This document shows, piece by piece, positions 27,739 to 59,342 of a stretch of 64,000 nucleotides of DNA. The stretch comes from Planctomycetia bacterium. Its GTDB lineage: Bacteria; Planctomycetota; Planctomycetia; Pirellulales; UBA1268. The notes beneath the pieces are model-generated. The model made no database searches, had not been told where the DNA came from, and was given only the letters and a program-made list of their open reading frames with translations. The stretch lies in the NCBI GenBank assembly GCA_026401035.1, contig JAPLNR010000054.1, positions 62,001 through 126,000 of the forward strand, in the 5' to 3' direction. The translations under genes and the position numbers were made by a program. Each line of letters begins with the position of its first letter. Within the stretch, counting starts at the first letter, position 1.

Positions 27739-28281
27739 TCATCTGGCGTCGGCCGGTCGTTTGACGAGGGCCTGCAGGTCAGGCGGGAGGTGAGCCCAAA
27801 GCCTTGGGTGTGCCTCGACGAGCCTGACGATGTCGGTAAAGTCCTTGGCCTGCTTGCTCTGCCGTCGCGTCGGTTCGCTCCACGCTTTGATCTTGCCGGC
27901 CAGGGTGTCTTCCAGTGAGGCCACCCTCAGCAGGATGCCGTGGACATCGGCTGGAACCGCCCGGCCGGGAAAATCCCGATAAAAACCCTCGGTCGACAGT
28001 TGGATCGTGACGGCCGAGCGACCGCGGAGGTTGATCGACCAGTCGAATCGCTCGCTCCTGAAACCGGCCTGTTCGAGGATCGCGACGGCCCGGTCGACGT
28101 CATCGAGGGCGATGACGAGGTCCACGTCGCGTGTGACCATCTGCTCCTCGGCCCAGTGGTTCACCGCCACGCCGCCGATGCAGCACCAAGACAGGTCGGC
28201 CCGTTCGAGGCAATCGACGAGCCGCATCACGTCGTCGGTCCCGCCGGACGTCTGCCAGTCAAAAAACTGTTTCTCCGTCAT
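27739..28281 (-). CDS. AbiEii-like nucleotidyltransferase
   Basis: 180 residues of the NTase superfamily. The core is CCIGGVAVNHWAEEQMVTRDVDLVIAL: the GG helix turn followed by the Asp-x-Asp metal site (about residues 37-57). The later GKIKAWSEPTRRQSKQAKDFTD is the lysine/aspartate helix typical of AbiEii/DUF6036-like proteins. Members act as toxins or antitoxins in abortive infection and related modules, though many are uncharacterised. No partner overlaps it, but a vapBC pair begins 250 bp away on the same strand. It lies between two nearly identical 65-bp direct repeats, so it may be a small insert. Confidence 0.75.
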   Translation of the reverse strand: MTEKQFFDWQTSGGTDDVMRLVDCLERADLSWCCIGGVAVNHWAEEQMVTRDVDLVIALDDVDRAVAILEQAGFRSERFDWSINLRGRSAVTIQLSTEGFYRDFPGRAVPADVHGILLRVASLEDTLAGKIKAWSEPTRRQSKQAKDFTDIVRLVEAHPRLWAHLPPDLQALVKRPADAR

Positions 28282-29303: not shown

Positions 29304-32300
29304 TCAGGGCTTTGCCGAGGAGGTCTGAGCGGTCCGGTAGAGCTCGGCCAGTTGGGATGGCGTTACGAACACCATGTCGGCGTCCCGCTCGGCGTAGATT
29401 TTCGCGAGGTCGTCCATCGAGAACGTCCAGCAATGGATGAAGCCGTTGACGAAGGCGGGCCGCTGGTCGCCCACCTGCTCACGAATCTCCCGCAGGAAGC
29501 CCTCCTTGCCATAGCGCCAGCTCGTCACCGATCGGAACACGGGCATGCCGTCGGGCAGCGAGTAGGTGAGGTTTTCGATTCCCGATCGGCCGGAGTAGCG
29601 GCCCATGTCGGCGAAGATGCTGTGGCAGAAGGGCAGTGCCGTGGCAAAGCGGGCGACGTTTTCATCGCTGCCGCCGACGGTGCGGACCGATCGCAGGCCG
29701 AGCGGCTCCATCAGACGGCGGGTCCAGGCGAGATAGTTCGACCAGACGGTCTCACGATCGGCATACGCCTCCGCGAAGTGATCGGGCTGCATGTAGCCGG
29801 CGCCCGACACGTCGGCAAAGAACTCGGTCGTGGGCGTGGCCTGCTCGAAATACCACTGGGCCACCGCCGGCTGGAATTCGCGGATCGCCGGCCCGATGCC
29901 GAAGGCGAGTGGAAACGTGCCAAACGCGGGGTGCTCGAAATACTTGCGGAAGAACCCAGGCCAGAGGATCTGGTTGTCGCCGTCGGAGAGGTTGAGCGCG
30001 ATGTAGATCTTGTCGCGCTCGAGCGCCGGGGCTGGCGAGGCGGGTGGCGGCGTGAGCTTGTCGATCCGGATGCTGCTTGAGAATGAGTGATTGCCCTGAT
30101 GGTTGGTGGGGACGAGCGACTTGCCAAATCGGCTGAGCAGCTCGACGCCCGGCGGCTCGCCCATCCCCTCGCCGTCGCCCATGCCCGGAAACCCGACCGA
30201 GATTCCATCCGCCGGCATTTCGGCGAGGATGCGGGCCATGAGATCGCGTTCCGCGAGGCGATCGACGCCGGCGTGACATTCCTCGCGGGGGCCGGCCACC
30301 CAAAACATGAGGCCCCGCCACTGGTAGGCGTAGTCGAACGTTCCATACAGCAACAGCCCCGGAAAGCGGAAGTCGCAGAGGTGGGGATTGAGCCGGTCCT
30401 TGTAGGTGGCCCGCAGCCACTCGAGGCCCTCGGCGTAGGTCGTGAATCGGCCGCGGAGATCGATCACTACGGGGAGCCCGAGCCGCTCGGCCAGTTGTGG
30501 CGACGCGACGAGCAGGTCTTCGCAGGCCGCGACGTTCACAGCGAGCAGGTCGCCCCGGTAGAGCGCCGGGTCGGGAACGACCACGCCCTTGATACTGTCG
30601 CGATGGGCGGCGACGAGCGTCTTCCAGTCGGCCACGGTCTCGAAGGCGTCGACGTGCCCCTTCGCCACGCACCAGTCCATCCAGAACTGATCTTGGGCGG
30701 CGTTTTGGATCAGGAAGAGCCGGGGCTGCTTCCGGGCGAGCAGTCCTTGCAGGCAGGTCAGCGCGATCCGCTCGTCCGCGGATAGGCCGTGCAGCGACAC
30801 AGCCTGAATCGTGCGGGCCGGCGGCAGCGACTTTGGCACGAACGTGTCGCCCCAGGATCGCGGCCCCAGAACTGCCTTCACGGGCGCCGTGCTCGTGTCT
30901 TCGGGCTTGGGCATCGCGTCGAGCGTCGCGAGTCGCTCCGCCACGTCGGCGGCGCCGAGCAACTGCCGTTCCTTCAGGCTCCAGAGTGCGCCCCGCACGA
31001 GCAACTGTTCCCCGGCATAGCGTTCGGCCGCGTTCAGATTCCAGACGGTCTGTCCGAGCCAGACATCGCAGGCCTGCGGACAGAACTGACAGCGGTGACG
31101 GATTGCGGCGGCAATCGGAAGCTCGGGGGCATCGGCAGAACGGATCGTCACGAGCGGGATCACCTCGTCGCCGTCAGGAAACGTCTTGGGCTCGAGGCGA
31201 CGTTGGTGGGCGTGTGTGCCTGCGAGCATCGCCGTCGTGAAGCCCAGTGGATTCGCCGGCACCATGCGTTCGGCCTTCGCATCGGCCGGGAGCGGGCCGA
31301 GCAGTCCGCCCGTGGCAAGACCGGCGTCGTTGTGTGCCCAGAGGTCTTTGATGTGCCGCGTGGTCCACTCGCCCGCGGGGCCGCCGGGCTGGCGGCTGGC
31401 AGCCTGATGGAACGGAACGCCGAACGTGATCAGGCTGCCGCCCGCGCGGCGGTAGCGATGGAGGTTTTCGAGGGCCTCCTCGGGAAATGCGTCGCCGGAC
31501 GGCATGACGAGTAGCGGGAGCCGCGCGGCGTTGAGTTTCTTGGGATCGGCGAGATCGGCCACGGTGAGCTGCTCGACGGGCAGGAAGGCCTCGAGGGCGC
31601 GGACGCAGATGGGACCGGGCAGGCAGTCGTTCTTGCCGACGCCGGCAAAGTCGCGATCGACGAACACGCCGACGCGGGCCCGCGGCGACATGCCGGTCCA
31701 GCGGGGCGGAATCGTGCCGCGTTCCCATTCGGCCAGCGCGGCGTTCAGCCGCGCGACATCAGCGGCCCGGTCCGCCGCGAGAGTTTTTGATTCGGCAACG
31801 TCGCTGGCGAGGTCATAGAGTTCGTCCGGCTGGCCGTGTGCCTTGAGCAGTTTGAGATTTCCCTGCCGCACGGCCTTCCAGCCGGCGAACCGCCAGAAGA
31901 GTGCTTCATGCGGCTGTTCGGTGGCGTGTTCGCCAACTCGATCGCCGGCAAGAAATGGCAGGAGGCTCACGCCGTCGGTGTCGCCGGGCGCGGCAAGGCC
32001 GGCGGCCGCGAGCGCGGTCGGCACGACGTCGAGCGACGAGACTGGCTTGTCGTAGGCCGTGCCAGCGGCGACATGGCCGGGCCATTCCACGAGATACGGC
32101 ACCCGGATGCCGCCCTCGTAGCATTCCCCCTTCAAGCCCCGCAGTGGCGTGTTGAGCGAGTAGTTCTCGCAGCCCGCCTCGACGAGCGTCTTGTTGCCGC
32201 CGGGGCTGCCGCCATTGTCCGAGAGGAAGACGATGATCGTGTCGTCGGCGAGGCCATGCGTCCGGAGCCGCTCCCGAATTGTTCCGATACCTTCATCCAT

Positions 32301-33152
32301 CGCCGCGACCATTGCGGCGATCGTGCGGCGGATCGGGTTTTCGATGTGGGAGAGTTTTTCCTCCCAGCGGGCACAGGGCGTGATCGGCGTGTGAGGGGCG
32401 CTGTAGGCGAGGTAGAGCAGGAACGGCTCGGCCCTGTGGGTGTCGATGAAGGCGAGCGCCTCGCGGGTGAAGGCGTCGGTGAGATACTCGCGCTCGGGTA
32501 CCGTCTCACGCCCCCGCATCACGGGCGAGCGGCCGTTTTCCTTGAAGGGCACCTTCTGATGGGGCGGTGAGCTCTTTAAGTAGAAGTTCCTCGCATCGTC
32601 GTCGGGAAGGTAGGCCCGGCCGCCATCGAGGAACCCGAAGAACTCGTCGAACCCTTGCGAGAGCGGGTGGTAGCGGTCGTGAACGCCGAGGTGCCACTTG
32701 CCGACGGCCGCCGTGCGGTAGCCCGCGGCTTTGAGCCGCTCCGCGAGCGTCTGCTCGTCGAGCGGCAGGCCCATCAATTCCGCATGCTCCAGTTCGAAAC
32801 TCTGCGCAATATTGTTTTCGTGGCCGAACCGCTGCTGATAGCGGCCGGTGAGCAGCCCGGCCCGCGTGGGGCTGCAGACGGGGCAGGTGACGTAGCCGTC
32901 CGTGCACCGGGCGCCGGCCTTCGCCATCGCATCGAGGTGTGGCGACGGAGCGTCTTTACCGCCGTAGCAGCCGAGTTCACCGTAGCCGAGGTCGTCGGCC
33001 ACGATCACGATCACATTGGGGGGCCGGGGAGCGGCGGCCTCTGCCCCGAGGGCATGCGGCGAGCCTGCCGCGAGCGTGCCCGTGAGCAGGGCGAGTGCGG
33101 CAGGCAGCACTGCGCGGAGCCGGGCCAGCACGCGAACCGGGAGGGCAGGCAT
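29304..33152 (-). CDS. Secreted sulfatase fused to GATase-like and GxGYxYP domains
   Basis: 1282 residues with a signal peptide (residues 1-37). Residues about 45-480 are a type I sulfatase. Metal-binding VADDLGYGELG comes first, then the formylglycine motif C93-S-P-T-R, then AVGKWHLGVH and FLSDNGGSPGG. Residues about 490-620 look like a Rossmann/GATase-type domain (LPLLVMPSGDAFPEEAL, RRAGGSLITFG). From about 770 to the end is a GxGYxYP-family domain, a putative glycoside hydrolase. Its signature is SGAGYMQPDHF, with Gln where Tyr usually stands, and SDGDN precedes it. GAGG lies seven bases before the ATG. Desulfation and glycan cleavage in one chain is the natural reading, but the hydrolase activity of this family is only predicted. 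Activation needs a formylglycine-generating enzyme encoded elsewhere. Confidence 0.85.
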   Translation of the reverse strand: MPALPVRVLARLRAVLPAALALLTGTLAAGSPHALGAEAAAPRPPNVIVIVADDLGYGELGCYGGKDAPSPHLDAMAKAGARCTDGYVTCPVCSPTRAGLLTGRYQQRFGHENNIAQSFELEHAELMGLPLDEQTLAERLKAAGYRTAAVGKWHLGVHDRYHPLSQGFDEFFGFLDGGRAYLPDDDARNFYLKSSPPHQKVPFKENGRSPVMRGRETVPEREYLTDAFTREALAFIDTHRAEPFLLYLAYSAPHTPITPCARWEEKLSHIENPIRRTIAAMVAAMDEGIGTIRERLRTHGLADDTIIVFLSDNGGSPGGNKTLVEAGCENYSLNTPLRGLKGECYEGGIRVPYLVEWPGHVAAGTAYDKPVSSLDVVPTALAAAGLAAPGDTDGVSLLPFLAGDRVGEHATEQPHEALFWRFAGWKAVRQGNLKLLKAHGQPDELYDLASDVAESKTLAADRAADVARLNAALAEWERGTIPPRWTGMSPRARVGVFVDRDFAGVGKNDCLPGPICVRALEAFLPVEQLTVADLADPKKLNAARLPLLVMPSGDAFPEEALENLHRYRRAGGSLITFGVPFHQAASRQPGGPAGEWTTRHIKDLWAHNDAGLATGGLLGPLPADAKAERMVPANPLGFTTAMLAGTHAHQRRLEPKTFPDGDEVIPLVTIRSADAPELPIAAAIRHRCQFCPQACDVWLGQTVWNLNAAERYAGEQLLVRGALWSLKERQLLGAADVAERLATLDAMPKPEDTSTAPVKAVLGPRSWGDTFVPKSLPPARTIQAVSLHGLSADERIALTCLQGLLARKQPRLFLIQNAAQDQFWMDWCVAKGHVDAFETVADWKTLVAAHRDSIKGVVVPDPALYRGDLLAVNVAACEDLLVASPQLAERLGLPVVIDLRGRFTTYAEGLEWLRATYKDRLNPHLCDFRFPGLLLYGTFDYAYQWRGLMFWVAGPREECHAGVDRLAERDLMARILAEMPADGISVGFPGMGDGEGMGEPPGVELLSRFGKSLVPTNHQGNHSFSSSIRIDKLTPPPASPAPALERDKIYIALNLSDGDNQILWPGFFRKYFEHPAFGTFPLAFGIGPAIREFQPAVAQWYFEQATPTTEFFADVSGAGYMQPDHFAEAYADRETVWSNYLAWTRRLMEPLGLRSVRTVGGSDENVARFATALPFCHSIFADMGRYSGRSGIENLTYSLPDGMPVFRSVTSWRYGKEGFLREIREQVGDQRPAFVNGFIHCWTFSMDDLAKIYAERDADMVFVTPSQLAELYRTAQTSSAKP

Positions 33153-33269: not shown

Positions 33270-33947
33270 TCACCCGCGGCGGTTGTAGAGGGCGACGGCC
33301 TGGCCGCGAGACCGCACGTGGAGTTTTTCGTAGATATGCCGCACGTGGGCATGGATCGTGTGGTAGCTCACGCCCACCTTCGCGGCGATCTCCTTGTAGA
33401 GATAGCCTTGCGCGAGCAGGGCGAGCACCTCGGCCTCGCGTTCGGAGAGGTGTTCCATGCCGGACCGGGCCGGGCCGGCCGGTTTCTTGAAGGCCTGCAC
33501 CACGCGGCGGGCGATATTACTCGTCATCGGCGCACCGCCGGCATGCACGTCGCGGACCGCGGCCAATAGTTCCGCCGCCCGCACCGGCTTCACGAGGTAG
33601 CCGTGGGCGCCCGCGGAGAGGGAATCGAAGATGGCGTCGTTGTGGTCGTAGACCGTGAGCATCATGATCTGCGTTTCCGGCGATCCTTCCGCCAAGTGCC
33701 GCACACACTCCACGCCGCTCATGCCCGGTAGGTTAATGTCGAGAATCGCGACCTTCGGGGCGAGTTTCGGCAGTGCACGGATCGCCTCCTCGGCGGAGCC
33801 GTACGCGGCCACGCACCGCACGTCGCTGGCGGCCTTCAGGATCTGCTGCAGCGACGAGCGAACGGCCGCATCATCCTCCACGATCGCGACGGTGATCAGC
33901 CCGCCGGGCCGTATTGTCTCGGGAGATTCAACGGCTGCCTTGCTCAT
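33270..33947 (-). CDS. NarL/LuxR family response regulator
   Basis: 225 residues. The receiver domain starts VAIVEDDAAVRSSL; phospho-acceptor Asp70 is in AILDINLPGMSG, and the conserved Lys is in YLVKPV. The C-terminal LuxR helix-turn-helix is LSEREAEVLALLAQGYLYKEIAAKVGVS. The ATG overlaps the kinase stop as ATGA, which sets the start at 33947 rather than 14 codons earlier. It is expected to be phosphorylated by the kinase encoded just upstream and to act on promoters; the divergent surface-protein gene is an obvious candidate target. Confidence 0.92.
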   Translation of the reverse strand: MSKAAVESPETIRPGGLITVAIVEDDAAVRSSLQQILKAASDVRCVAAYGSAEEAIRALPKLAPKVAILDINLPGMSGVECVRHLAEGSPETQIMMLTVYDHNDAIFDSLSAGAHGYLVKPVRAAELLAAVRDVHAGGAPMTSNIARRVVQAFKKPAGPARSGMEHLSEREAEVLALLAQGYLYKEIAAKVGVSYHTIHAHVRHIYEKLHVRSRGQAVALYNRRG

Positions 33948-35668
33948 GTGCCACGGCCCTGTGGTTGCCCGGGCTTCAGCGGCACGCAAAACCGCACGAT
34001 CGTGCCACGGCCACCGGCTCCGGCCGCGATCGTGTAGATTCCGCCGAGGGCCGCGATCCTCGCCCGCATATTGCCCAGTCCATCATGCCCCGGGGGCAGG
34101 CGGCCCGCCAGAGCGTCTGCCGGGATTCCGCAGCCGTCGTCTTCGACCTCGATCGTGAGTGAGCCGTCCGCGGACTGCATGCGGATCCAGACCTCGGTCG
34201 CCCGGGCATGCTGCACGACGTTGTGCAGAGCCTCCTTGATCGTGAGGAAGATGCCGCGCCGCTCGATCGATGAGAGTTGGCCCGTCGGCATTTCGTCGGG
34301 TATCTGGAGCCGACAGCCGATGCCTGCCGACCGCAGGTATTCCTGCGACTCCTTGGAGAGAAACGTGGCCAGGCTTTCGACCGAGTCTTGGCCCGGGCTG
34401 ATCGCCCACACGGCGGCGTCGAGTTGCCTCGCGAGATGGTGGGCCGTGGAGAAGATCGTGTCGAGCTGCGACCGGGCCGCCTCCCGGTCGGCAAGCCCGT
34501 CGCGGGCGAGTTCGCTCGCCAGCGCGATCTGCGTGAGGCTTCCGCCGAGTTCGTCATGCAGATCCTGGGCGATCCGCGTGCGTTCGGTGCTGACGGCGTG
34601 GGCCTTCTCGAGACGTGCCAGCTCAAGTTGGAGCCGATTCCATTCGAAATACCGCCACGTGCCGAAAAAGGCGCCGCCGGCCGCCAGCCCGCATGCCGCC
34701 CAGAACCAGGGCCGATTCCAGAGCGGCTCGGGGAGGACGATCTCCGTGACCTTCTCGACGCCGGTGGGCACGCCCTCGGTAGTGGCGGCAGCAAGTCGGA
34801 AGCGGTAGGTGCCCGGCTTCAGGTGGCGATAGCGCTCCGTGCCGCCCGAATTCGCGCCGATCGAGAACACTTCCCCCCATTCTAGTTCGAGCGTATCGCC
34901 CGGCGTCACCGCCATCTGCGCTCTGCTGAGCAGCCGCCATCCGGAGAAACCTTCCGGATCCGCATCGATGAATTGAAGCGCCGGCTGCCCATTGAAATCA
35001 CCGATCACGGCGGAGTCGGAATTACTGCCGAATTTTTCCCACGGAAGGCCTGTCGCCGCCACGGAAAACGTGGTGACCAAGGGGGCGACGTCGGACGTCT
35101 TTCCAAGTGTCGTCACGGTGACTCCATCGATCGCGAGCACCCCTACCGTCGTGAACACGCCGCCCGACCAGATCGCGATGCCCATCTTCGCGCTATCGGG
35201 AGGCACCGTCACCCGGCTGGTGCGGCGGGTGAACTGCGACGCCGCCAGCGTACCGCGCCACCCCGCACTCTTCCCCTTCATAAAGAATTCGAACATGCCC
35301 GTCTGCGCACTTTTAGCACTAAAAAAGATGACGCTCATCCGCATGTGGGCGGAGCCCGAATCGATGTCGCGCCAGTCCGTATCCACACCCTCCAATTTGA
35401 AGAGCAGCCTCGTGCCTGAGGGGCCGGCCGACGCCAGGTCGAAGGGTTCAAACGAGAGGGAGACGTCGGCCTCCTGCCGGGCCGGAAGGTGAATCGCCTG
35501 CCCGGCCCGCATGACAATGGGTGTGCCATCGACAGACAGGCTCGTGATCGAGGCGAACCCCGGCCCGCGAGGAGAGGAATCCTCCCCCGCGAAAGCTGTG
35601 CCAGCCGCCATCACTGCGGCAGCCAGTGCCGGAAATGATGACCAAGATCGGCGTGGCGATGCGTCCAT
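33944..35668 (-). CDS. Sensor histidine kinase, HisKA_3 (NarX/DesK) type
   Basis: 574 residues. Signal or anchor at 1-28 (FPALAAAVMAAGTAFAG), then a periplasmic region of about 300 residues ending in a Y_Y_Y-like beta domain (GGTERYRHLKPGTYRFRLAA). One membrane segment follows (WFWAACGLAAGGAFFGTW). The dimerisation motif with the phosphorylated His is RIAQDLHDELGGSLTQIA. The ATPase has the N box as IKEALHNVVQHA, then DDGCGIP and DGLGNMRARI. Start 35668 fits the signal peptide. The two-component partner is the overlapping LuxR-type regulator. The input domain suggests sensing a periplasmic or surface ligand. Confidence 0.88.
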   Translation of the reverse strand: MDASPRRSWSSFPALAAAVMAAGTAFAGEDSSPRGPGFASITSLSVDGTPIVMRAGQAIHLPARQEADVSLSFEPFDLASAGPSGTRLLFKLEGVDTDWRDIDSGSAHMRMSVIFFSAKSAQTGMFEFFMKGKSAGWRGTLAASQFTRRTSRVTVPPDSAKMGIAIWSGGVFTTVGVLAIDGVTVTTLGKTSDVAPLVTTFSVAATGLPWEKFGSNSDSAVIGDFNGQPALQFIDADPEGFSGWRLLSRAQMAVTPGDTLELEWGEVFSIGANSGGTERYRHLKPGTYRFRLAAATTEGVPTGVEKVTEIVLPEPLWNRPWFWAACGLAAGGAFFGTWRYFEWNRLQLELARLEKAHAVSTERTRIAQDLHDELGGSLTQIALASELARDGLADREAARSQLDTIFSTAHHLARQLDAAVWAISPGQDSVESLATFLSKESQEYLRSAGIGCRLQIPDEMPTGQLSSIERRGIFLTIKEALHNVVQHARATEVWIRMQSADGSLTIEVEDDGCGIPADALAGRLPPGHDGLGNMRARIAALGGIYTIAAGAGGRGTIVRFCVPLKPGQPQGRGT

Positions 35669-35844
35669 GACGGGAACCCTGGGTCGGCCAGACCCCCTCA
35701 TTATGCCGTGCCGCAGGCAGAAAAACCGGCCTAAATCCAACTTTGTGAGTCGCCAGTTCTGGCTATTTCGGGCCTCCGAACCATGGCCTACTCTAGCCGG
35801 ATGAGGGGGAAGTTCTCCCGGAACCGAAATCGGAGTCGACGATT
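35669..35844. promoter_or_regulatory. Divergent promoter region between sensor kinase and PEP-CTERM surface-protein gene
   Basis: 176 bp separate the two opposite start codons, so both promoters must lie here. No confident -35/-10 pair or operator could be picked by eye. Confidence 0.45.
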
Positions 35845-41348: not shown

Positions 41349-44282
41349 GTGAGAGCAGTGCGCAGGACGACCGTTGTGGTCATGGCCGCCTGCCTCGCGA
41401 CGCTGCGTCTCGAAGCCGCGGTGCCGATCGTGGCTGGCTTCGAGCGCTATGGCCGCTTCGCCGAGGGCGACGGCGCAAGGGTGGAGGCCGGGCTCCTCCT
41501 CCTCGGTGATTTGGGCTGCGTGAACTGCCATGCCGGCTCAGCAAAAGCCACGCAGCACTTCCTACCCAAGGCCGGCCCCGTGCTCGACCAGGTCGGTACG
41601 AGGCTCCGCCCGGAATGGATCGTCCGCTACTTGGCGGATCCGCATGCGACCAAGCCGGGCACTACCATGCCTCACGTGCTCGCCGGCCTGCCGGATGCCG
41701 AGCGGGAGCATGCGGCCACGGCGCTTGCCCACTTTCTGGTTTCCACCGGGGAATTCGTCGACGGTTGGGGCAACGAGCGGCCAAACGTCAGTCTTCAGGA
41801 GGGGCTCGCCGTGTATGAGCGTTCTGGCTGTACCGCCTGCCACGGCTCGCGAAAGACCGATGCCGTTGCGCTTGCTGACAGCGTGCCGCTCGGTGAACTC
41901 GACGGCAAGTGGTCTCCCCGGTCGCTCGACGAGTTCCTCAAAGACCCGCTGGCGACACGTCCCTCCAGCCGGATGCCCACGACCGTGCTCGCCGACAGTG
42001 ACCGCCGCCAACTCGTTGCCGCGCTCATGACCACCCCGCCGAGTCATGGATCAAGTTTCGACGACGTGACCGCCTTCAATGGGCGGGTGTGGTCCGCCCG
42101 CATTGATACGCTCGACGAGATGGCCTCGCTCGGGCCGCCAACGCGGTCAGCGCCGATGAAGGGCTTCGATGTCGTTGGACTGGCCCAGGCACGCGAGAAC
42201 TTCGCCGTGCAGCTCGATGGATTTTTTCATGCCCCCGTGCCGGGAGCGTATACCTTTCATCTGGCGAGCGACGACGGCAGCCGGCTGTTCGTGGGGGGAA
42301 CACTGGTCGTGAACAACGACGGCATCCACGGCCTTACCGAACGGCAGGAAACGGTCACTCTCGTGGCCGGAGTTCATCCACTGCGGATTGACTATTTCGA
42401 GGCGACTGGCGGCGAGGGGCTCTCCGTCGATGTGGTGCCCCCCGGCCGCCGGCGGCGGACGCTGCTGGCCCATGCCACTCCCGGCGCAGAAGACCATCCG
42501 GCGTTCCAGACGCGGAAGTTGGAGGTCGCGGCCCTGCCGTTCACGGTCGATCCCGCGCTTGCTGCCGAGGGGCGGCAGTTGTTCGGGAAGGTTGGTTGTG
42601 CGAACTGCCATGTGATGCACGACGGTGAAGGGCAACAGCTGGCGGTCTTGTCGGAGCCGAAATCCTTGTCTGAGTTGCGCGCGTTGACCTCCGGCTGCCT
42701 AACGGCCAATCCCGGCCAGGCAGCGGGTGGTCGGCCCGCTGCGGCACGGTATGGACTCGACGAGATCCAGCGGAGCATGCTGCGCGACGCCGTCTCGTGG
42801 CTGAAGGAATCGGCCGCGGATCAGGAGCCAACCCGCGAGTATCGCATCGACCGGGGGTTCACAGCGCTCAACTGCTACGCATGCCACGTTCGTGACGGTA
42901 AGGGGGGCACTGTGCCGGCGGTAGTCACCTTGGATGAGGAGGGCGAACCGGTCCGTGTCGACGCGGCCCGCGACGCGCTCTTCACCTCGGCGGTGGCGGA
43001 ACTCGGCGAAGAAGCCCGGCTTCCGCCATTGCTCACGGGCGTCGGCGACAAACTGGCTCCCGACTTTCTTGCACAGGTGCTTCGCGACGGCGGGCATGAC
43101 CGCGTTGGCTACATGCACACGCGCATGCCGAAATGGAACGGTCTCGTCGCCGATCCCCTCGCCGCCCTGCTCGCAGAGGATGCCAAGACCTCGGTGCCGG
43201 TGCCCGAACTTGGCGGGTTTGTCGCTGCAGAGGTAGCCGAACAGGGGCGGAGGCTGTGCGGATCAACGGCGTTAGGCTGCATCAAGTGCCATGCATTCGG
43301 CGGCGAGAAGGGGCAGAGCCTCGGCGTGATCGACATGACACGGATGCCCAAACGCCTGCGCCACGAATGGTTTCTCGCGTACGTCGCCAATCCACAGCGG
43401 TTTCGCCCCGGCACGCGGATGCCCGCGGCCTGGCCCGACGGCAAGACGTTTTTCACTGACATCCTCGATGGCTCCGCTGCCGGCCAGATCGAGAGCGTCT
43501 GGCGGTATGTCTCGGGAGCGAAACCCGCTCCGCCCCTCGGCCTGGCCACCGACCCGATCGAACTCGTTCCCGCAGGACGGCCGATCGTCTACCGGAATTT
43601 TATCGAGGGAGCCGGCCCGCGGGCGATCGGCGTCGGCTACCCGGAGCGGATCAACATGGCGTGGGATGCGAATGCCTCACGGCTGGCCTTGGTCTGGAGT
43701 GGCGGATTCATCGACGCCAGCCGCCATTGGACCGGGCGGGGCGCGGGCTTTCAGCCACCGTTGGGAAACGGAGTGTTTTGCGCCGACGCCTCGACGCCGC
43801 TCGCCGTGTTTGCGTCCAAGGCTGATCTGGCGACCGCCATGTGGCCGGCAGCCGCCGATCGTAAGTCGCAAGGCCCCGCCGCAGGGCATACCGCCCTCGG
43901 CTATCGCCTCGATGCCGCCGGCAGACCGATTTTTCGGTGGCGCTGGGGTGAGTGCATCGTGGTCGACGCAATCGAGCCGGTGACGTTCGGGGCCGCTGGC
44001 GCCGGGAAAGGGCCGTTCGCTGGCCTGAGACGCACGCTCACCATCTCCGGATCGCCCCCCGCAGGGACCGTCGCATTCAGGGCCGCTACAGGCGACTCGA
44101 TCGCAGATGAATCGGATGGCTGGTACCGCGTCGATGGGCGGTGGCGGGTGCGGGTCGAGGCAGACGGGACAATCGTGCGACGTGGCGACGAGGGTCACCC
44201 CGAAGTGCGGGTGCCGCTCGTCTGGAAGCCAACTGCCGACGGCCGAGCCGAGGCTGTGGTGGTGGAGGAACTCAGATGGTGA
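41349..44282 (+). CDS. Secreted c-type cytochrome-like protein with PA14 domain
   Basis: 977 residues, GTG start with AGGA nine bases upstream and an N-terminal signal (VVMAACLATLRLEA). Five CxxCH haem-binding motifs are visible: CVNCH, CTACH, CANCH, CYACH and CIKCH. A PA14 domain lies between the second and third (about residues 235-375; FHLASDDGSRLFVGGTLVV, then DYFEATGGEGLSVDV). It belongs to the large haem-binding planctomycete proteins thought to act in periplasmic oxidation of sugars or in electron transfer. It overlaps the next gene by seven bases, and the products probably form one complex. Electron acceptor and substrate are unknown. Confidence 0.85.
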   Translation: MRAVRRTTVVVMAACLATLRLEAAVPIVAGFERYGRFAEGDGARVEAGLLLLGDLGCVNCHAGSAKATQHFLPKAGPVLDQVGTRLRPEWIVRYLADPHATKPGTTMPHVLAGLPDAEREHAATALAHFLVSTGEFVDGWGNERPNVSLQEGLAVYERSGCTACHGSRKTDAVALADSVPLGELDGKWSPRSLDEFLKDPLATRPSSRMPTTVLADSDRRQLVAALMTTPPSHGSSFDDVTAFNGRVWSARIDTLDEMASLGPPTRSAPMKGFDVVGLAQARENFAVQLDGFFHAPVPGAYTFHLASDDGSRLFVGGTLVVNNDGIHGLTERQETVTLVAGVHPLRIDYFEATGGEGLSVDVVPPGRRRRTLLAHATPGAEDHPAFQTRKLEVAALPFTVDPALAAEGRQLFGKVGCANCHVMHDGEGQQLAVLSEPKSLSELRALTSGCLTANPGQAAGGRPAAARYGLDEIQRSMLRDAVSWLKESAADQEPTREYRIDRGFTALNCYACHVRDGKGGTVPAVVTLDEEGEPVRVDAARDALFTSAVAELGEEARLPPLLTGVGDKLAPDFLAQVLRDGGHDRVGYMHTRMPKWNGLVADPLAALLAEDAKTSVPVPELGGFVAAEVAEQGRRLCGSTALGCIKCHAFGGEKGQSLGVIDMTRMPKRLRHEWFLAYVANPQRFRPGTRMPAAWPDGKTFFTDILDGSAAGQIESVWRYVSGAKPAPPLGLATDPIELVPAGRPIVYRNFIEGAGPRAIGVGYPERINMAWDANASRLALVWSGGFIDASRHWTGRGAGFQPPLGNGVFCADASTPLAVFASKADLATAMWPAAADRKSQGPAAGHTALGYRLDAAGRPIFRWRWGECIVVDAIEPVTFGAAGAGKGPFAGLRRTLTISGSPPAGTVAFRAATGDSIADESDGWYRVDGRWRVRVEADGTIVRRGDEGHPEVRVPLVWKPTADGRAEAVVVEELRW

Positions 44283-49109: not shown

Positions 49110-49262
49110 CTACGGTTGAGCAGCACCCTTGCCGCGGCAGCGGTCGCTGCAATACCGCACCTGCTCCCAGCACCGCTCCCATTTCTTGCGCCACGTAAAC
49201 TCGCGGCCGCAGGCGGCGCAGATCTTCGCGGGCCGGTTTACGCGGTCTTGGCTGCGGCCCAT
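49110..49262 (-). CDS. DUF2256 zinc-ribbon-like small protein
   Basis: 50 residues. [20 protein letters not shown], then [12 protein letters not shown]: the four-cysteine pattern CxxC and CxxxC of DUF2256. The start is the ATG at 49262 with GGAG nine bases before it; it lies inside the end of cstA by 25 bp in another frame. It may be translated together with cstA. Function of the family is unknown; zinc binding is expected. Confidence 0.8.
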
Positions 49263-51022
49263 GCCTTGGGCTCCGGAAGGTGTCCACTGGGGCCCGGCCT
49301 CTGCGGCCCCGGCGGCGCCGCCAAGACGCGAATGGCCTCCACCAGCATCACGCCCGCCAGCGCGAGCAGCACCACGCCCGCCCAGGGCACCGGATCGGCC
49401 GGCAGCACGAAGCCACCCGCCCCGCGGAAGCGCGGCAGCGTCATGCTCGCCAGCGCCCAGGTGCTCATCACATACATGAACACGGTCGGCACGCCGGTGA
49501 CGAGCCAGACCCAGGCCTCGCGACGCGTTCGCCACAGCCAGACCGTCACGCCCAGGAGCGTGAGCGCCGCCAGCAGCTGGTTGCTCGCGCCAAACAGGCT
49601 CCAGAATGTTTTCCAGACGGGGATCGCGTCGCCGTTGCCGTCGAGCTGCGGCCGCAGGAGGAAGAGCAGCGGCACGCCCGCCGTTAGTGCGGTGCCGAGC
49701 CACGCGCCCGTCCGGCCCGTCAGGCCGGTGAGCTCCTGGACGATGTACCGGCCGAGCCGGGTGCAGACGTCGAGCGTGTCGTAGACGAAGGTCGTGAAGG
49801 CCATGAGCGCGAACGACACGCCGATCGTCGTCGGCACGCCGAGGATCTCGAGAAACCGACCCATGCCGAGGGCATAGACGAAGTTCGGCGGCTGGTTTGC
49901 CAGCGGGCTGTCGGCGGCGAGCACCATCACGCACGACAGGCTCACGATCGCCACCATCGCCTCCAGGAGCATCGTGCCATAGCCAATCGGCCGGGCGTCG
50001 GTCTCCCTGCGCAATTGCTTGCTCGTGGTGCCCGAGGCGATCAGCGAGTGAAAGCCGGAGCAGGCGCCGCAAGCGATCGTAATGAAGAGCATCGGAATCA
50101 GTTCGCCCGCCTTCGCCGTCTGCCAGTTTGTGAAGGCCGGGTAGCGCACGCACGAATCGCCCGCCACCAGCCGGTCGCTCGCCACGAGGCCGATCACCGC
50201 GCCTGCCAGGGCGACATAAAGAAAACAACCGCCGAGGTGTCCGCGCGGCTGCAGCAGCAGCCACATCGGCACCATCGCCGCCCCGAGACAGTAGAGCAAG
50301 AGCAGCACGCCCCAGATCTTCTGGGCCTGCCCGTTGCTCACGCCGAGCAGCGCCGCCAGGTCGAACGGAATGAACTGGCCGATCCAGATCGCCACGCCCA
50401 CGAGCGGCAGAAAGATCAGCGTGGCCAGCCAGAGGGGCATCTTCAGATGCCGCATGCAAAGCCCCATGATCACCGGCAGTACGAGATAGAGCAGGCTCGA
50501 CGTGGCGATGCCGCCGCCCGACACCTCCTGGCCGTTCTCGAGTGTCTGCCGTCCGATGAAGCTCGAGGCCGTGATGTCGGTGAAGGCGACGACGATGTAG
50601 ACCAGCGCGATCCAGACGAACGCCAGGAAGAGCACGTAGCTCCGGCGGCTCATGTGATCGCGGACCACCTCGGCGATCGACCGGGCCTTGTGGCGGATCG
50701 AGGCCACGAGCGCCGCAAAATCGTGCACGCCGCCGATGAAGATGCTGCCGATCAAGATCCAGAGCAGGGCCGGCAGCCAGCCGAAGGCCACGCCGGCGAG
50801 GATCGGCCCGACGATCGGCCCGGCCGCCGCGATCGCCGAGAAGTGCTGGCCGAGCAGGAGCTGCGGGGCGATCGGCTCGTAGTCGATGTCGTCGCGGAGC
50901 GTGACCGCGGGCGTGGGCGTGGCGGCGTCGAGCCGGAAGAGCCGGGCGAGCAGGCTGCCATAAAGCCGGTAGGCCACCATGAGGATGAGGCCGCTCGGGA
51001 TGAGAATGGCAAGAAGGCTCAT
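49238..51022 (-). CDS. cstA: Carbon starvation protein CstA (peptide/pyruvate transporter)
   Basis: 594 residues of an inner-membrane protein with about 14-16 hydrophobic segments. N-terminus [20 protein letters not shown]. Family signatures: [21 protein letters not shown] and [21 protein letters not shown], then [20 protein letters not shown], later [20 protein letters not shown]. CstA is known as a pyruvate/peptide uptake system induced by starvation in E. coli. The start at 51022 is the first Met of the family-like sequence; no strong ribosome site is seen. It is divergent from the thioredoxin-reductase-like gene by 174 bp and overlaps DUF2256 at its end. Confidence 0.93.
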
Positions 51023-51196
51023 GGTGATGCTCAGGGCCGCCGGCGGGCTGCCTGTTTCGGGGGAATCCGCGGGGCGGGTGTGCCGTCCGCGACGAACCGT
51101 TACCATCATGCCGATTCCGGCCGGTGGCGTCGATCCAGAAGCCGCCGGTGCGCGATCTGGGCATCAGCGAAGGCACGCGTGAAGGGAGTCATCCAC

Positions 51197-55551: not shown

Positions 55552-57018
55552 TTACTTTGTCGTCGGGGCGGCCGTCGGGGCCGCCGTCACGAGGACATCC
55601 TGCGGGTCTTCCACGAGACGGAGGCCGCGGAAGCGGACTTCCTGTGGAACCTTGTTGGAATGGAGTTGCAGGCCGATCGGGCCGCTCTCGCAGAGCTCCG
55701 GCTTCGGATCGGTCCAGTCGAGCACCTCCTGCCCGTTGACTGCGAAGCGGATGCGATTCCCGATCGCGAGGATCTCCATCTGGTTCCAGTCGTGCTGCTT
55801 GCCGGCCTTCTTCGCCTTGCCGTCCTGGTCGCCGCTGATGCCGTTGCGCCGGTAGAGGTCGTAGAGGCCCCAGCCGGAGGGAAACATCACGAGGTGCCCC
55901 TGGTAGCTCGAGGCCTCGCCATCCTTGTCGAACTTTTTCCCCCAGATGGCCACGCCGGAGTGCATCTCGCTCGTCGCGAGCTTGCCCTCGAGGAGCAGCC
56001 GGAAGTTGCGATACGGCTTCTTCGTCAGCAGGTAGGTGCTCACCTTCGGGGCGTTTTCAGCAGTGTTGCGGCCCACGATCTCGGCGCCATCGATCGACCA
56101 GTAGGGATCGATGTGCCCCTCCCAGCCCTCGAGGTCGCGGCCGTTGAAGAGCTTCACGGCCTTCGCCTGCTCCTCGGCCGGCAGGTTCACCGACGACGCC
56201 CAATCGGTCGCGGCGGCAGCCTCGCCGGGAGCGAGCGTGACGTCGGCCGCGGGCGTGCCGTCATCCTGCAGTTTGCCGGCGGCCCAGAGCGTGCCGCGGG
56301 TGACGAGGTCGAGAAACTCAGGCATCCGCACGGTCTCGGTGTAGTGGCCGATCGTCGTGCCGAAGACACGGGTCTTGTGGTAGTCGTTGGTCCAGACCAC
56401 CGTCTGGTTGCTCTTCCGCTCGCGGCTCATCGCCTCGGCAAGCGGCGTGGCGGTGGGAAACAGCTTGTCGCAGAAGTAGAGCTCCTCCTTGGGCAGCTTC
56501 CATTCCTTCGGCAGGCCGTTCACGATCGGATGCTTCCCGATGATGTTCGCCGTGTATTCGTAGTGGGCCCCGTGGCCGGGCGACTGGATGCCGCAGAATT
56601 CGAACCAGTCGTCGTTACCGGTGCGGTAGCAGTGCATCGCGCAGTGCATGAGCACGGCCGGCACGCCCTTCTTATGTTCGGCGACGATCCCCTTCACGAA
56701 CTCCGGATCCTTGACGGCGGCGAAGCACTCGTTGTGGAAGACCACGTCGTAGCCCTTCGACCAGTCGGGCTTGGAATAGATCGACACCTTGTGGTCGGTG
56801 CTCGCGCCCCCTTCGTGGACGACCGTGACCTTCATCCGCGCCCGCGACGAGAGCCCCTCGGAGATCACCTTCTTCTGGCCGTCATAGTCGTGGCAGCAGC
56901 CACCGGTGATGTAGAGCACCTCGAGCGGCTTGCCCGCCTCCGCGGCCGACACGGCAGCGGGGAGAAGGATCGACAGGGCGAGTAGTCCAACGACGGCACG
57001 GGTGGCGAAGCGGATCAT
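55552..57018 (-). CDS. Secreted ThuA-DUF1080 fusion
   Basis: 488 residues. Signal peptide about 1-25 (VVGLLALSILLPAAVSAAEA); start fixed by GGAGG nine bases before the ATG. Residues about 30-270 are a ThuA/trehalose-utilisation domain with a GATase-like fold (LEVLYITGGCCHDYDGQKKV, then PAVLMHCAMHCYR, DLVTRGTLWAAGKL). Residues about 285-475 are DUF1080 (LFNGRDLEGWEGHIDPYWSI, NFRLLLEGKLATSEMHSGV, WNQMEILAIGNRIRFAVNG), the 3-keto-disaccharide hydrolase family. It is probably periplasmic breakdown of oxidised sugars. The LssY_C gene precedes it by 47 bp on the same strand. Confidence 0.88.
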   Translation of the reverse strand: MIRFATRAVVGLLALSILLPAAVSAAEAGKPLEVLYITGGCCHDYDGQKKVISEGLSSRARMKVTVVHEGGASTDHKVSIYSKPDWSKGYDVVFHNECFAAVKDPEFVKGIVAEHKKGVPAVLMHCAMHCYRTGNDDWFEFCGIQSPGHGAHYEYTANIIGKHPIVNGLPKEWKLPKEELYFCDKLFPTATPLAEAMSRERKSNQTVVWTNDYHKTRVFGTTIGHYTETVRMPEFLDLVTRGTLWAAGKLQDDGTPAADVTLAPGEAAAATDWASSVNLPAEEQAKAVKLFNGRDLEGWEGHIDPYWSIDGAEIVGRNTAENAPKVSTYLLTKKPYRNFRLLLEGKLATSEMHSGVAIWGKKFDKDGEASSYQGHLVMFPSGWGLYDLYRRNGISGDQDGKAKKAGKQHDWNQMEILAIGNRIRFAVNGQEVLDWTDPKPELCESGPIGLQLHSNKVPQEVRFRGLRLVEDPQDVLVTAAPTAAPTTK

Positions 57019-57065
57019 CGGGGCGGGCCTCCAGAGAGTGGGATTGCCCGCGGAGGATACCACGC

Positions 57066-57758
57066 TCACCGCCGGATCGCGATCACCCCGACGGCGAGCC
57101 GTCCGTCCGTAAAATATGGATCGCCGCCGCCGTTGCGGCCGTCGCGGGAGCCATGGAAGCGGTCGACCCAGTAAAAGCCGTCGAGCACGCCGGAGTCGCG
57201 GGTGTCGGTCAGGAGCTTGTTGCGTTCGCGGTCGATGTCCGGGCCGATGCGATGGGTCACGCCGCCGGTCGTGCGGCTGATCTCCACCCGCTCGTCGTAG
57301 GTGGCCGCGCCCAGCCAGAGCGGCTCGCCGTTGCCGTCGACTTCGGTCGACCGCCAGAACCGCACGTGGTGTCGCTGCTTCGGGCTGTTGCCGACGGGCT
57401 GCTCGAACGCGAAGTCCTGCCGGCGGCTCCAGAGAAACAGGTCGCTCACCGGCGCATGTTCATACGGCTTCCGCAGCACCACGTCGGCGGCGATCCGCAC
57501 CGACGTGCGGAGCGTGATCGGATCGGCGGCATACCAGCCGGCCGTGGCCAGCACGCGATGCAGTTCTTCGTCGGTTCCGATGAAGGCGACGTTGACGGCA
57601 TCGCCGGGACGGCCGTCGTGCGTCGCGGTCACCCGCGGCGCGCGGGCGAGCGCCGGATGGCCGGTGATCGCGCCGTCGGGTTCCTGGCCAGATGAAGACG
57701 CCGGGGCGAGGTTCCACAGACAGCAGACGGCGAGCAGCAGGGGGGCGATGCGACACAC
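57066..57758 (-). CDS. Secreted LssY C-terminal domain protein
   Basis: 230 residues, GTG start, signal peptide about 1-24 (APLLLAVCCLWNLAPASSSG). The body matches the LssY_C domain: DAVNVAFIGTDEELHRVLATAGWYAADPIT, then RRQDFAFEQPVGNSPKQRHHVRFW and IGPDIDRERN. In other bacteria this domain stands behind PAP2/DedA membrane proteins; here it is free. Function unknown. It may be co-transcribed with the ThuA gene downstream. Confidence 0.82.
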   Translation of the reverse strand: MCRIAPLLLAVCCLWNLAPASSSGQEPDGAITGHPALARAPRVTATHDGRPGDAVNVAFIGTDEELHRVLATAGWYAADPITLRTSVRIAADVVLRKPYEHAPVSDLFLWSRRQDFAFEQPVGNSPKQRHHVRFWRSTEVDGNGEPLWLGAATYDERVEISRTTGGVTHRIGPDIDRERNKLLTDTRDSGVLDGFYWVDRFHGSRDGRNGGGDPYFTDGRLAVGVIAIRR

Positions 57759-58057: not shown

Positions 58058-59299
58058 TCAGCCGCGGGGATCGCGGACGGTGCCGGCAAACAGGATCGTG
58101 CCCGTCGCCCGCTCGATGATCGCCCACGCAAACGGCCGGTCGGCCCGCACCACGAGCGGCGGTTCGGTCGGGGGAGCCGCGCTTCGCACGCCGATGGCGA
58201 CTCCCGTCGCCGCGGCCGCCTCAGTGCCCTCTTCAGTGACGTCGACGAAACCTTCGTGCACGACCGCCGACACGACGAGATCCCGAGTGCCGTCGATGCC
58301 GGAGAAGTCGGCAAGCCCGCCTTCGAAGGCCTGCTTCATGCCCATCGCCATCAGCGGCTCCTTGAGCGACAAGGGCCGGCGGGCGGTCCACCGTGGCAGC
58401 GCGAGCTCCACCGGCCGCGACTGCAGTGACTTTGTGCCGTTCACGGTCCACTTGTCGCGCCAGTGGCTGTCGAACCCTGCGACCACCTGGTCGAGGCCGT
58501 CGGCCTCGTCGGGCACGGCGACGAGCATCGCCAGCCGGTTGCCCGCGTAGGGAATCTCGCAGGCGGTGACCGGATGACCAGCGACGGTCACCTTGCCGGC
58601 GGTCAGCCTGCCTGAGCGATGCATGAACGGCACTTCCGCCATCTGCCCTCCACGGAGCATGAACGGCTCGGGCCGCGTCGCACTCTTGTCAAACGGCTCG
58701 GCCCACGGGGCCTTGAAATAGAGGGCATTGGTCAGCACCATCCGCGTGAGTGGATCGATCGTGCCCGACTTCATCAGTTCGACGATCCTGCCCTCCGTGT
58801 TGTCGCTCACCCACTTGTTCACCTCCGCCCGCGCGGCCTCTGAGGCGCCGGCGAAATCGACCTCGCCGGGGGCCGCGTTGTGCCGCTCCTGGAGCAGCGT
58901 GGTGAACGCCGGATCGAGCGGCTTGCCCCGCTGCACCCAGAGCCGGTTGGCCCGCTCGAGCGTGACGAATTGTCCCTTGGCGATCTTGAATGTGCTCCGC
59001 AGCGACTCGACGGCGGCAGCCAACTGCTCGCGGTCGTCGGGCATACCGAGCACGCCGGCGATTTCCGCCGCCGTGCCGCCGCGGGCGCCGGCGTGGGTCA
59101 TGGCCAGTGCTCCCCAGACGCTTGCCGGCGAGAGGATCACGTTGCCGTCACCGGCCGTCCGCACGAGGTCCCAGGCCATCTTGGCGATCCCCTCCGACAC
59201 CTCGGTGCCAGAGGTGGGGTCCGCGGCGCGAACATCAGTTCGCCAGGCGTGGGGGAAGGCACACGCAATCAACACGGCGACGACACACAAACGCTTCAT
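58058..59299 (-). CDS. Secreted serpin
   Basis: 413 residues. Signal peptide about 1-25 (LCVVAVLIACAFPHAW), start fixed by AAGGAG nine bases upstream. Serpin landmarks: NVILSPASVWGALAMTHAGA, RMVLTNALYFKAPWAEPFD, then the reactive-loop hinge EEGTEAAAATGV followed by about 15 exposed residues, and RPFAWAIIERATGTILFAGTV at the end. Small residues throughout the hinge (positions P15-P9) mark an inhibitory serpin, able to trap a protease. The protease it targets is unknown; defence against foreign or own secreted proteases is the usual idea. Confidence 0.92.
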   Translation of the reverse strand: MKRLCVVAVLIACAFPHAWRTDVRAADPTSGTEVSEGIAKMAWDLVRTAGDGNVILSPASVWGALAMTHAGARGGTAAEIAGVLGMPDDREQLAAAVESLRSTFKIAKGQFVTLERANRLWVQRGKPLDPAFTTLLQERHNAAPGEVDFAGASEAARAEVNKWVSDNTEGRIVELMKSGTIDPLTRMVLTNALYFKAPWAEPFDKSATRPEPFMLRGGQMAEVPFMHRSGRLTAGKVTVAGHPVTACEIPYAGNRLAMLVAVPDEADGLDQVVAGFDSHWRDKWTVNGTKSLQSRPVELALPRWTARRPLSLKEPLMAMGMKQAFEGGLADFSGIDGTRDLVVSAVVHEGFVDVTEEGTEAAAATGVAIGVRSAAPPTEPPLVVRADRPFAWAIIERATGTILFAGTVRDPRG

Positions 59300-59342
59300 G
59301 GCACTCTCCTTCAATGACGCTCACTCGACCGTTTGCGGGGCT

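Follow-up and report, generated by a model that had tools for sequence, protein, structure and literature searches.

A predicted secreted planctomycete protein uniting an S1-type sulfatase, a GATase-like domain and a GxGYxYP unit, with a possible role in sulfated-glycan degradation

Sulfatase–glycosidase fusions are already known, as are the S1 sulfatase and GxGYxYP families. P36 of Formosa agariphila, which functions in ulvan degradation, first takes the sulfate off a terminal rhamnose with its S1_25 sulfatase, and its GH78 alpha-L-rhamnosidase domain then frees that rhamnose (PMC8511951). Since 2014 the GxGYxYP family has been predicted to consist of glycoside hydrolases, and in that year its one known catalytic fusion partner was phytase (PMC4071793); no member with demonstrated activity was found in the literature searched. 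For BT_2193 (structure 3sgg), the proposed catalytic residues are Glu272, Asp331 and Asp333, together with Asn334 (PMC4071793).

The window analyzed here is a 64,000-nucleotide stretch of a Planctomycetia bacterium genome. A single open frame on its reverse strand (29304–33152), with an ATG start and no internal stop, encodes a 1282-aa protein with the following features:

33042–33152 (−): predicted Sec signal peptide, residues 1–37 (basic N-region, hydrophobic core and AxA-type end, by eye)
31695–33026 (−): S1-type sulfatase domain, S1_19-like, residues 43–486 (PF00884; phmmer matches 6prm, 6bia, 9hh3 and 6b0k)
32862–32876 (−): CSPTR formylglycine motif, residues 93–97, aligning with CGPSR of 6prm
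30813–31682 (−): middle domain, GATase/ThuA-like Rossmann fold plus beta layer, residues ~491–780 (AlphaFold2, Foldseek)
30063–30812 (−): GxGYxYP N-terminal three-repeat part, residues 781–1030, including E999 (PF16216, PF20957, PF20958)
29334–30014 (−): GxGYxYP C-terminal beta/alpha barrel, residues 1047–1273 (PF14323, E 4.9e-37; 3sgg fold)
29973–29987 (−): SDGDN, residues 1056–1060, aligned to 3sgg
29784–29804 (−): GAGYMQP signature, residues 1117–1123 (read in the sequence and in the family alignment)

Six Pfam matches exceed the curated cut-offs: Sulfatase (residues 45–385, E 1.2e-64), SGSH_C (344–464), GxGYxYP_N (785–848), its N_2nd (854–921) and N_3rd (940–1027) repeats, and GxGYxYP_C (1047–1273, E 4.9e-37). 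Residues ~487–780 match no Pfam family. The initial annotation had described one secreted chain in which a sulfatase, a central Rossmann-like domain and a GxGYxYP domain are fused, and this layout is borne out by the Pfam profiles (Sulfatase and all four GxGYxYP models), the fold search and the uninterrupted frame, with secretion predicted from the signal peptide evident by eye. Like P36, the protein carries a sulfatase and a (here predicted) glycan-cleaving domain on one chain, which in P36 act in consecutive steps; unlike P36, its sulfatase is S1_19-like rather than S1_25, its cleaving domain is the uncharacterised GxGYxYP rather than GH78, and a GATase-like domain lies between its two enzymes. 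BT_2193 shares the three N-terminal repeats, the 7-stranded barrel and the same predicted acidic triad plus Asn, but has neither a sulfatase nor a GATase-like domain.

The sulfatase part scores 219 bits against PF00884 (cut-off 25), and phmmer finds its closest solved chains among the S1_19 carrageenan sulfatases (6prm, E 9.5e-100; 6bia; 9hh3; 6b0k). The active site had been described as complete on the basis of C93-S-P-T-R, and alignment to 6prm agrees: besides the motif at residues 93–97, all active-site residues of the S subsite are retained (D53/D54, C93, R97, K152, H154, H254, D312/N313 and K341), H254 being the counterpart of the catalytic acid H233. The likeness to PsS1_19A/B (6bia, 6prm) covers the catalytic Cys, the catalytic-acid His, and the Lys and Asp/Asn of the core, and the S1_19B subsite Phe (F103) is matched by F119. 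However, the C-terminal tail that bears the −1 subsite tyrosines of S1_19B (Y455/Y458) is without an aligned counterpart, because the chain enters the middle domain directly after W485; the specificity of S1_19B is therefore not transferable to this sulfatase. Carrageenan is not implied as the substrate; those relatives that carry a name and come closest are MAGs with the labels Lake Pavin/Lake Fargette. A strong formylglycine-generating-enzyme homolog (E 5.2e-79) is encoded on the same contig, and the genome has 34 sulfatase matches.

The structure predicted for the middle domain plus the GxGYxYP unit (mean pLDDT 89.9, pTM 0.86) matches 3sgg with E 5.2e-31, a TM-score of 0.83 normalised on 3sgg and ~21% identity, which together with the four Pfam models above cut-off identifies the C-terminal part as GxGYxYP. 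E999 corresponds to Glu272 of BT_2193, an assignment taken from the multiple alignment (the pairwise alignment to 3sgg is ambiguous in that region), and D1057, D1059 and N1060 correspond to D331, D333 and N334; all four are kept in every aligned relative that covers those positions. The initial annotation had suggested that Gln in place of Tyr in GAGYMQP might alter activity. GAGYMQP nevertheless conforms to the signature, a degenerate motif of which the sixth position varies across the family: BT_2193 has GSSYIFP, with Phe there (PMC4071793), and among relatives the residue is Q, A, R, S, Y, K or N. The window protein, L036 and L097 all carry GAGYMQP, Gln being ordinary for this clade, and the motif's exposed Tyr is conserved in the aligned relatives, as are the predicted catalytic acids. 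The concern over Gln is therefore unsupported, and the idea of an activity altered on this account is rejected.

The middle domain was modelled from an alignment of eleven relatives (AlphaFold2, mean pLDDT 82). In Foldseek its best match is a GH42 enzyme (5xb7, E 1.7e-6, TM 0.50), and the ThuA-like proteins 1t0b and 4jqs also match (TM 0.51–0.52 on the target), in keeping with the central Rossmann-like domain proposed earlier and specifying it as a GATase/ThuA-like fold. The matched portion of the GH42 enzyme is taken to be its GATase-like trimerisation domain; by analogy with GH42 enzymes, the role of the middle domain is probably structural, in spacing, oligomerisation or pocket shaping. In its own bacterial family the domain is present in only two of 72 genomes, each time adjoining GxGYxYP. 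A 1227-aa frame near another GxGYxYP gene (L102:1558–5241, +) has a weak match to the middle domain (E 9e-9) and no Pfam family. Elsewhere in the window, a ThuA domain is fused to a 3-keto-disaccharide hydrolase domain (55552–57069, −).

We infer, as a reading that is somewhat better than an even bet, that the protein is a secreted bifunctional enzyme for a sulfated glycan, which desulfates a sugar and then cleaves the glycan; both activities, their order, the shared substrate and the export are part of the inference. Conversion of Cys93 to formylglycine would render the N-terminal S1 sulfatase active, and this domain would strip a sulfate ester from a sugar that probably sits at the non-reducing end or close to it. 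Hydrolysis of the glycosidic bond thereby exposed would follow in the cleft that separates the N-terminal repeats of the GxGYxYP unit from its barrel; there E999 would serve as the acid, and the attacking water would be held by D1057/D1059. The GATase-like domain between the two enzymes would probably be structural. The initial annotation had already suggested a single glycan as the target of both sulfate removal and cleavage; the idea gains from the P36 precedent, from a GH78 fusion in a relative and from sulfatase genes beside GxGYxYP genes, and the glycosidase activity of GxGYxYP stays a prediction.

The GH78 fusion is encoded by G675, a planctomycete MAG labelled Lake Pavin/Lake Fargette that belongs to the same bacterial family as the window genome. 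Its 1754-aa protein (L099:7817–13081, +, on G675:C31; a chain of the same composition is also listed at L119:7878–13142) unites the middle domain, GxGYxYP and a complete GH78 alpha-L-rhamnosidase in one chain, and that genome has no other GH78 match; a genome search found no GH78 in the window genome. The two proteins thus share the middle–GxGYxYP unit, but the partner is a C-terminal GH78 in G675 and an N-terminal sulfatase in the window protein. With respect to separate genes, six of 51 GxGYxYP loci have a sulfatase gene no more than 3 kb away, where 1.9 were expected (Poisson p ~0.014), and four have one on the same strand, where 0.98 were expected (p ~0.018). The expectations were computed from genome-wide densities; the enrichment is modest, and related loci are not fully independent. 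At L156 (genome G287) the sulfatase gene is 18 bp downstream of the GxGYxYP gene on the same strand, and at L124, outside the 51-locus set, it is 110 bp upstream. Several GxGYxYP-bearing genomes have no sulfatase at all, and the family as a whole is therefore not tied to sulfated glycans.

The sulfatase-free genomes and the lack of GH78 in the window genome count against the bifunctional reading, as does the setting of the window gene: no recognisable polysaccharide locus surrounds it, and its near neighbours encode a two-component system, a TPR protein and a PATR/PEP-CTERM protein. Directly upstream on the same strand are a LuxR-type response regulator and a HisKA_3 sensor kinase (33270–35740, −), a pair that is a possible regulator of the sulfatase–GxGYxYP gene. 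Just 3′ of the gene, a short frame running from ~29206 downward (−) starts MKTTVDIADDLLLRAKREAEASQTTLRSLIEEGL and is ribbon-helix-helix antitoxin-like by eye; an AbiEii-like nucleotidyltransferase (PF08843, E 5e-8) is encoded at 27739–28281 (−). The window also encodes a single chain that combines cytochrome c domains with a PA14 domain (41349–44282, +), a 688-aa frame with a C-terminal DUF2256 as its sole Pfam match (49110–51176, −), and a bacterial Serpin family protein (58058–59314, −; PF00079, E 4.5e-93).

Two other functions for the C-terminal unit were considered. In the first, which we regard as unlikely, the GxGYxYP and middle domains merely bind or position the glycan, and the sulfatase is the sole catalyst, equipped with a large binding appendage. 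This would fit a family for which no activity is known, with lectin-like modules (F5/8C, LamG) in other members, and for which the cleft of BT_2193 was inferred (PMC4071793). However, the three acidic residues and the Asn in the cleft are near-invariant even in very distant members, which goes beyond the usual demand of binding alone, and a conserved two-domain fold of ~500 aa is large for a binding module. In the second, which appears improbable, GxGYxYP is catalytic but is not a glycosidase (being, for example, a deacetylase, an esterase or lyase-like), such that the chain would desulfate its substrate and then strip another decoration. The barrel does resemble polysaccharide deacetylases (3rxz, E 3e-4), and the sole catalytic fusion reported in 2014 was with phytase; yet Rigden et al. 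report that BT_2193 lacks residues that are key to catalysis in the barrel families it matches (PMC4071793), and the GH78 fusion in the relative fits glycan cleavage, although debranching would fit it equally.

Outside the window protein, the combination appears to be rare. PF14323 is present in 20 of 392 genomes of the phylum set and 51 of 397 of the order set, giving ~97 matches from planctomycete genomes once the overlap between the sets is removed, and the GxGYxYP unit occurs in only two of the 72 genomes of the protein's own bacterial family. When co-occurrence of PF00884 and PF14323 was surveyed, the window protein was the only fusion among these ~97 matches, and none of 15 relatives from a GTDB R220 scan has a sulfatase fused. 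The absence of another in-frame sulfatase follows from the small number of frames long enough to hold one, each of which was individually checked: the other long GxGYxYP frames (1178, 1181, ~950, 979, 907 and 1757 aa) gave no sulfatase profile match, and carry F5/8C, LamG/dockerin, unassigned extensions or GH78. Among the matches listed from plasmid and phage collections, only the sulfatase part is represented. The fusion is thus unique within the sampled planctomycete genomes and GTDB relatives, and the literature searched contained no paper describing a sulfatase–GxGYxYP fusion and no report of this combination, of the GATase-like linker or of the parallel GH78 fusion.

The same genome encodes an 830-aa GxGYxYP paralog (L031:9724–12216) in which the order is signal peptide, middle domain and GxGYxYP; it shares 44% identity with the part of the window protein that begins at residue 491. 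The middle–GxGYxYP architecture is also found in a planctomycete of a distant class (L040) and a further planctomycete (L116), and beyond planctomycetes in Lentisphaerae (L117), Sumerlaeota (L120) and Armatimonadota (L121–L123). It is a pre-existing secreted architecture, to which a whole sulfatase has been added in place of the signal peptide with a seamless joint: the sulfatase extends to its usual final residues (W485), the middle domain takes over at ~491, and the joint holds no start region, signal peptide or intergenic remnant. An assembly or sequencing artefact uniting two neighbouring genes is very improbable, even in a draft genome of 82 contigs with the fusion in no second genome sampled, given that the joint bears no such leftover, whereas in the paralog a separate signal peptide occupies that place, and that GC by codon position is steady over the junction and all parts (GC3 0.74–0.89 throughout, continuous across the joint), with no sign of a frame artefact. 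By identity, the GxGYxYP part comes closest (73–75%) to middle-less proteins of G675, whereas the middle domain is closest to that of the paralog (49%); shuffling of the two parts is not needed to explain these unequal identities, because in the best tree, though weakly supported, the groups of the paralog and of the window protein already stand side by side.

More broadly, and only tentatively, GxGYxYP may be a new glycoside hydrolase family, the planctomycete branch of which would act on sulfated, perhaps rhamnose-containing, glycans and serve as an exchangeable core of bifunctional secreted enzymes; if so, that core is linked to a sulfatase in one genome and to a rhamnosidase in another. 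The sulfatase and GH78 links narrow the search for GxGYxYP substrates to sulfated, possibly rhamnosylated glycans, and both fusions are ready constructs in which glycan cleavage by the family can be tested, opening a direct route to the function of this uncharacterised family.
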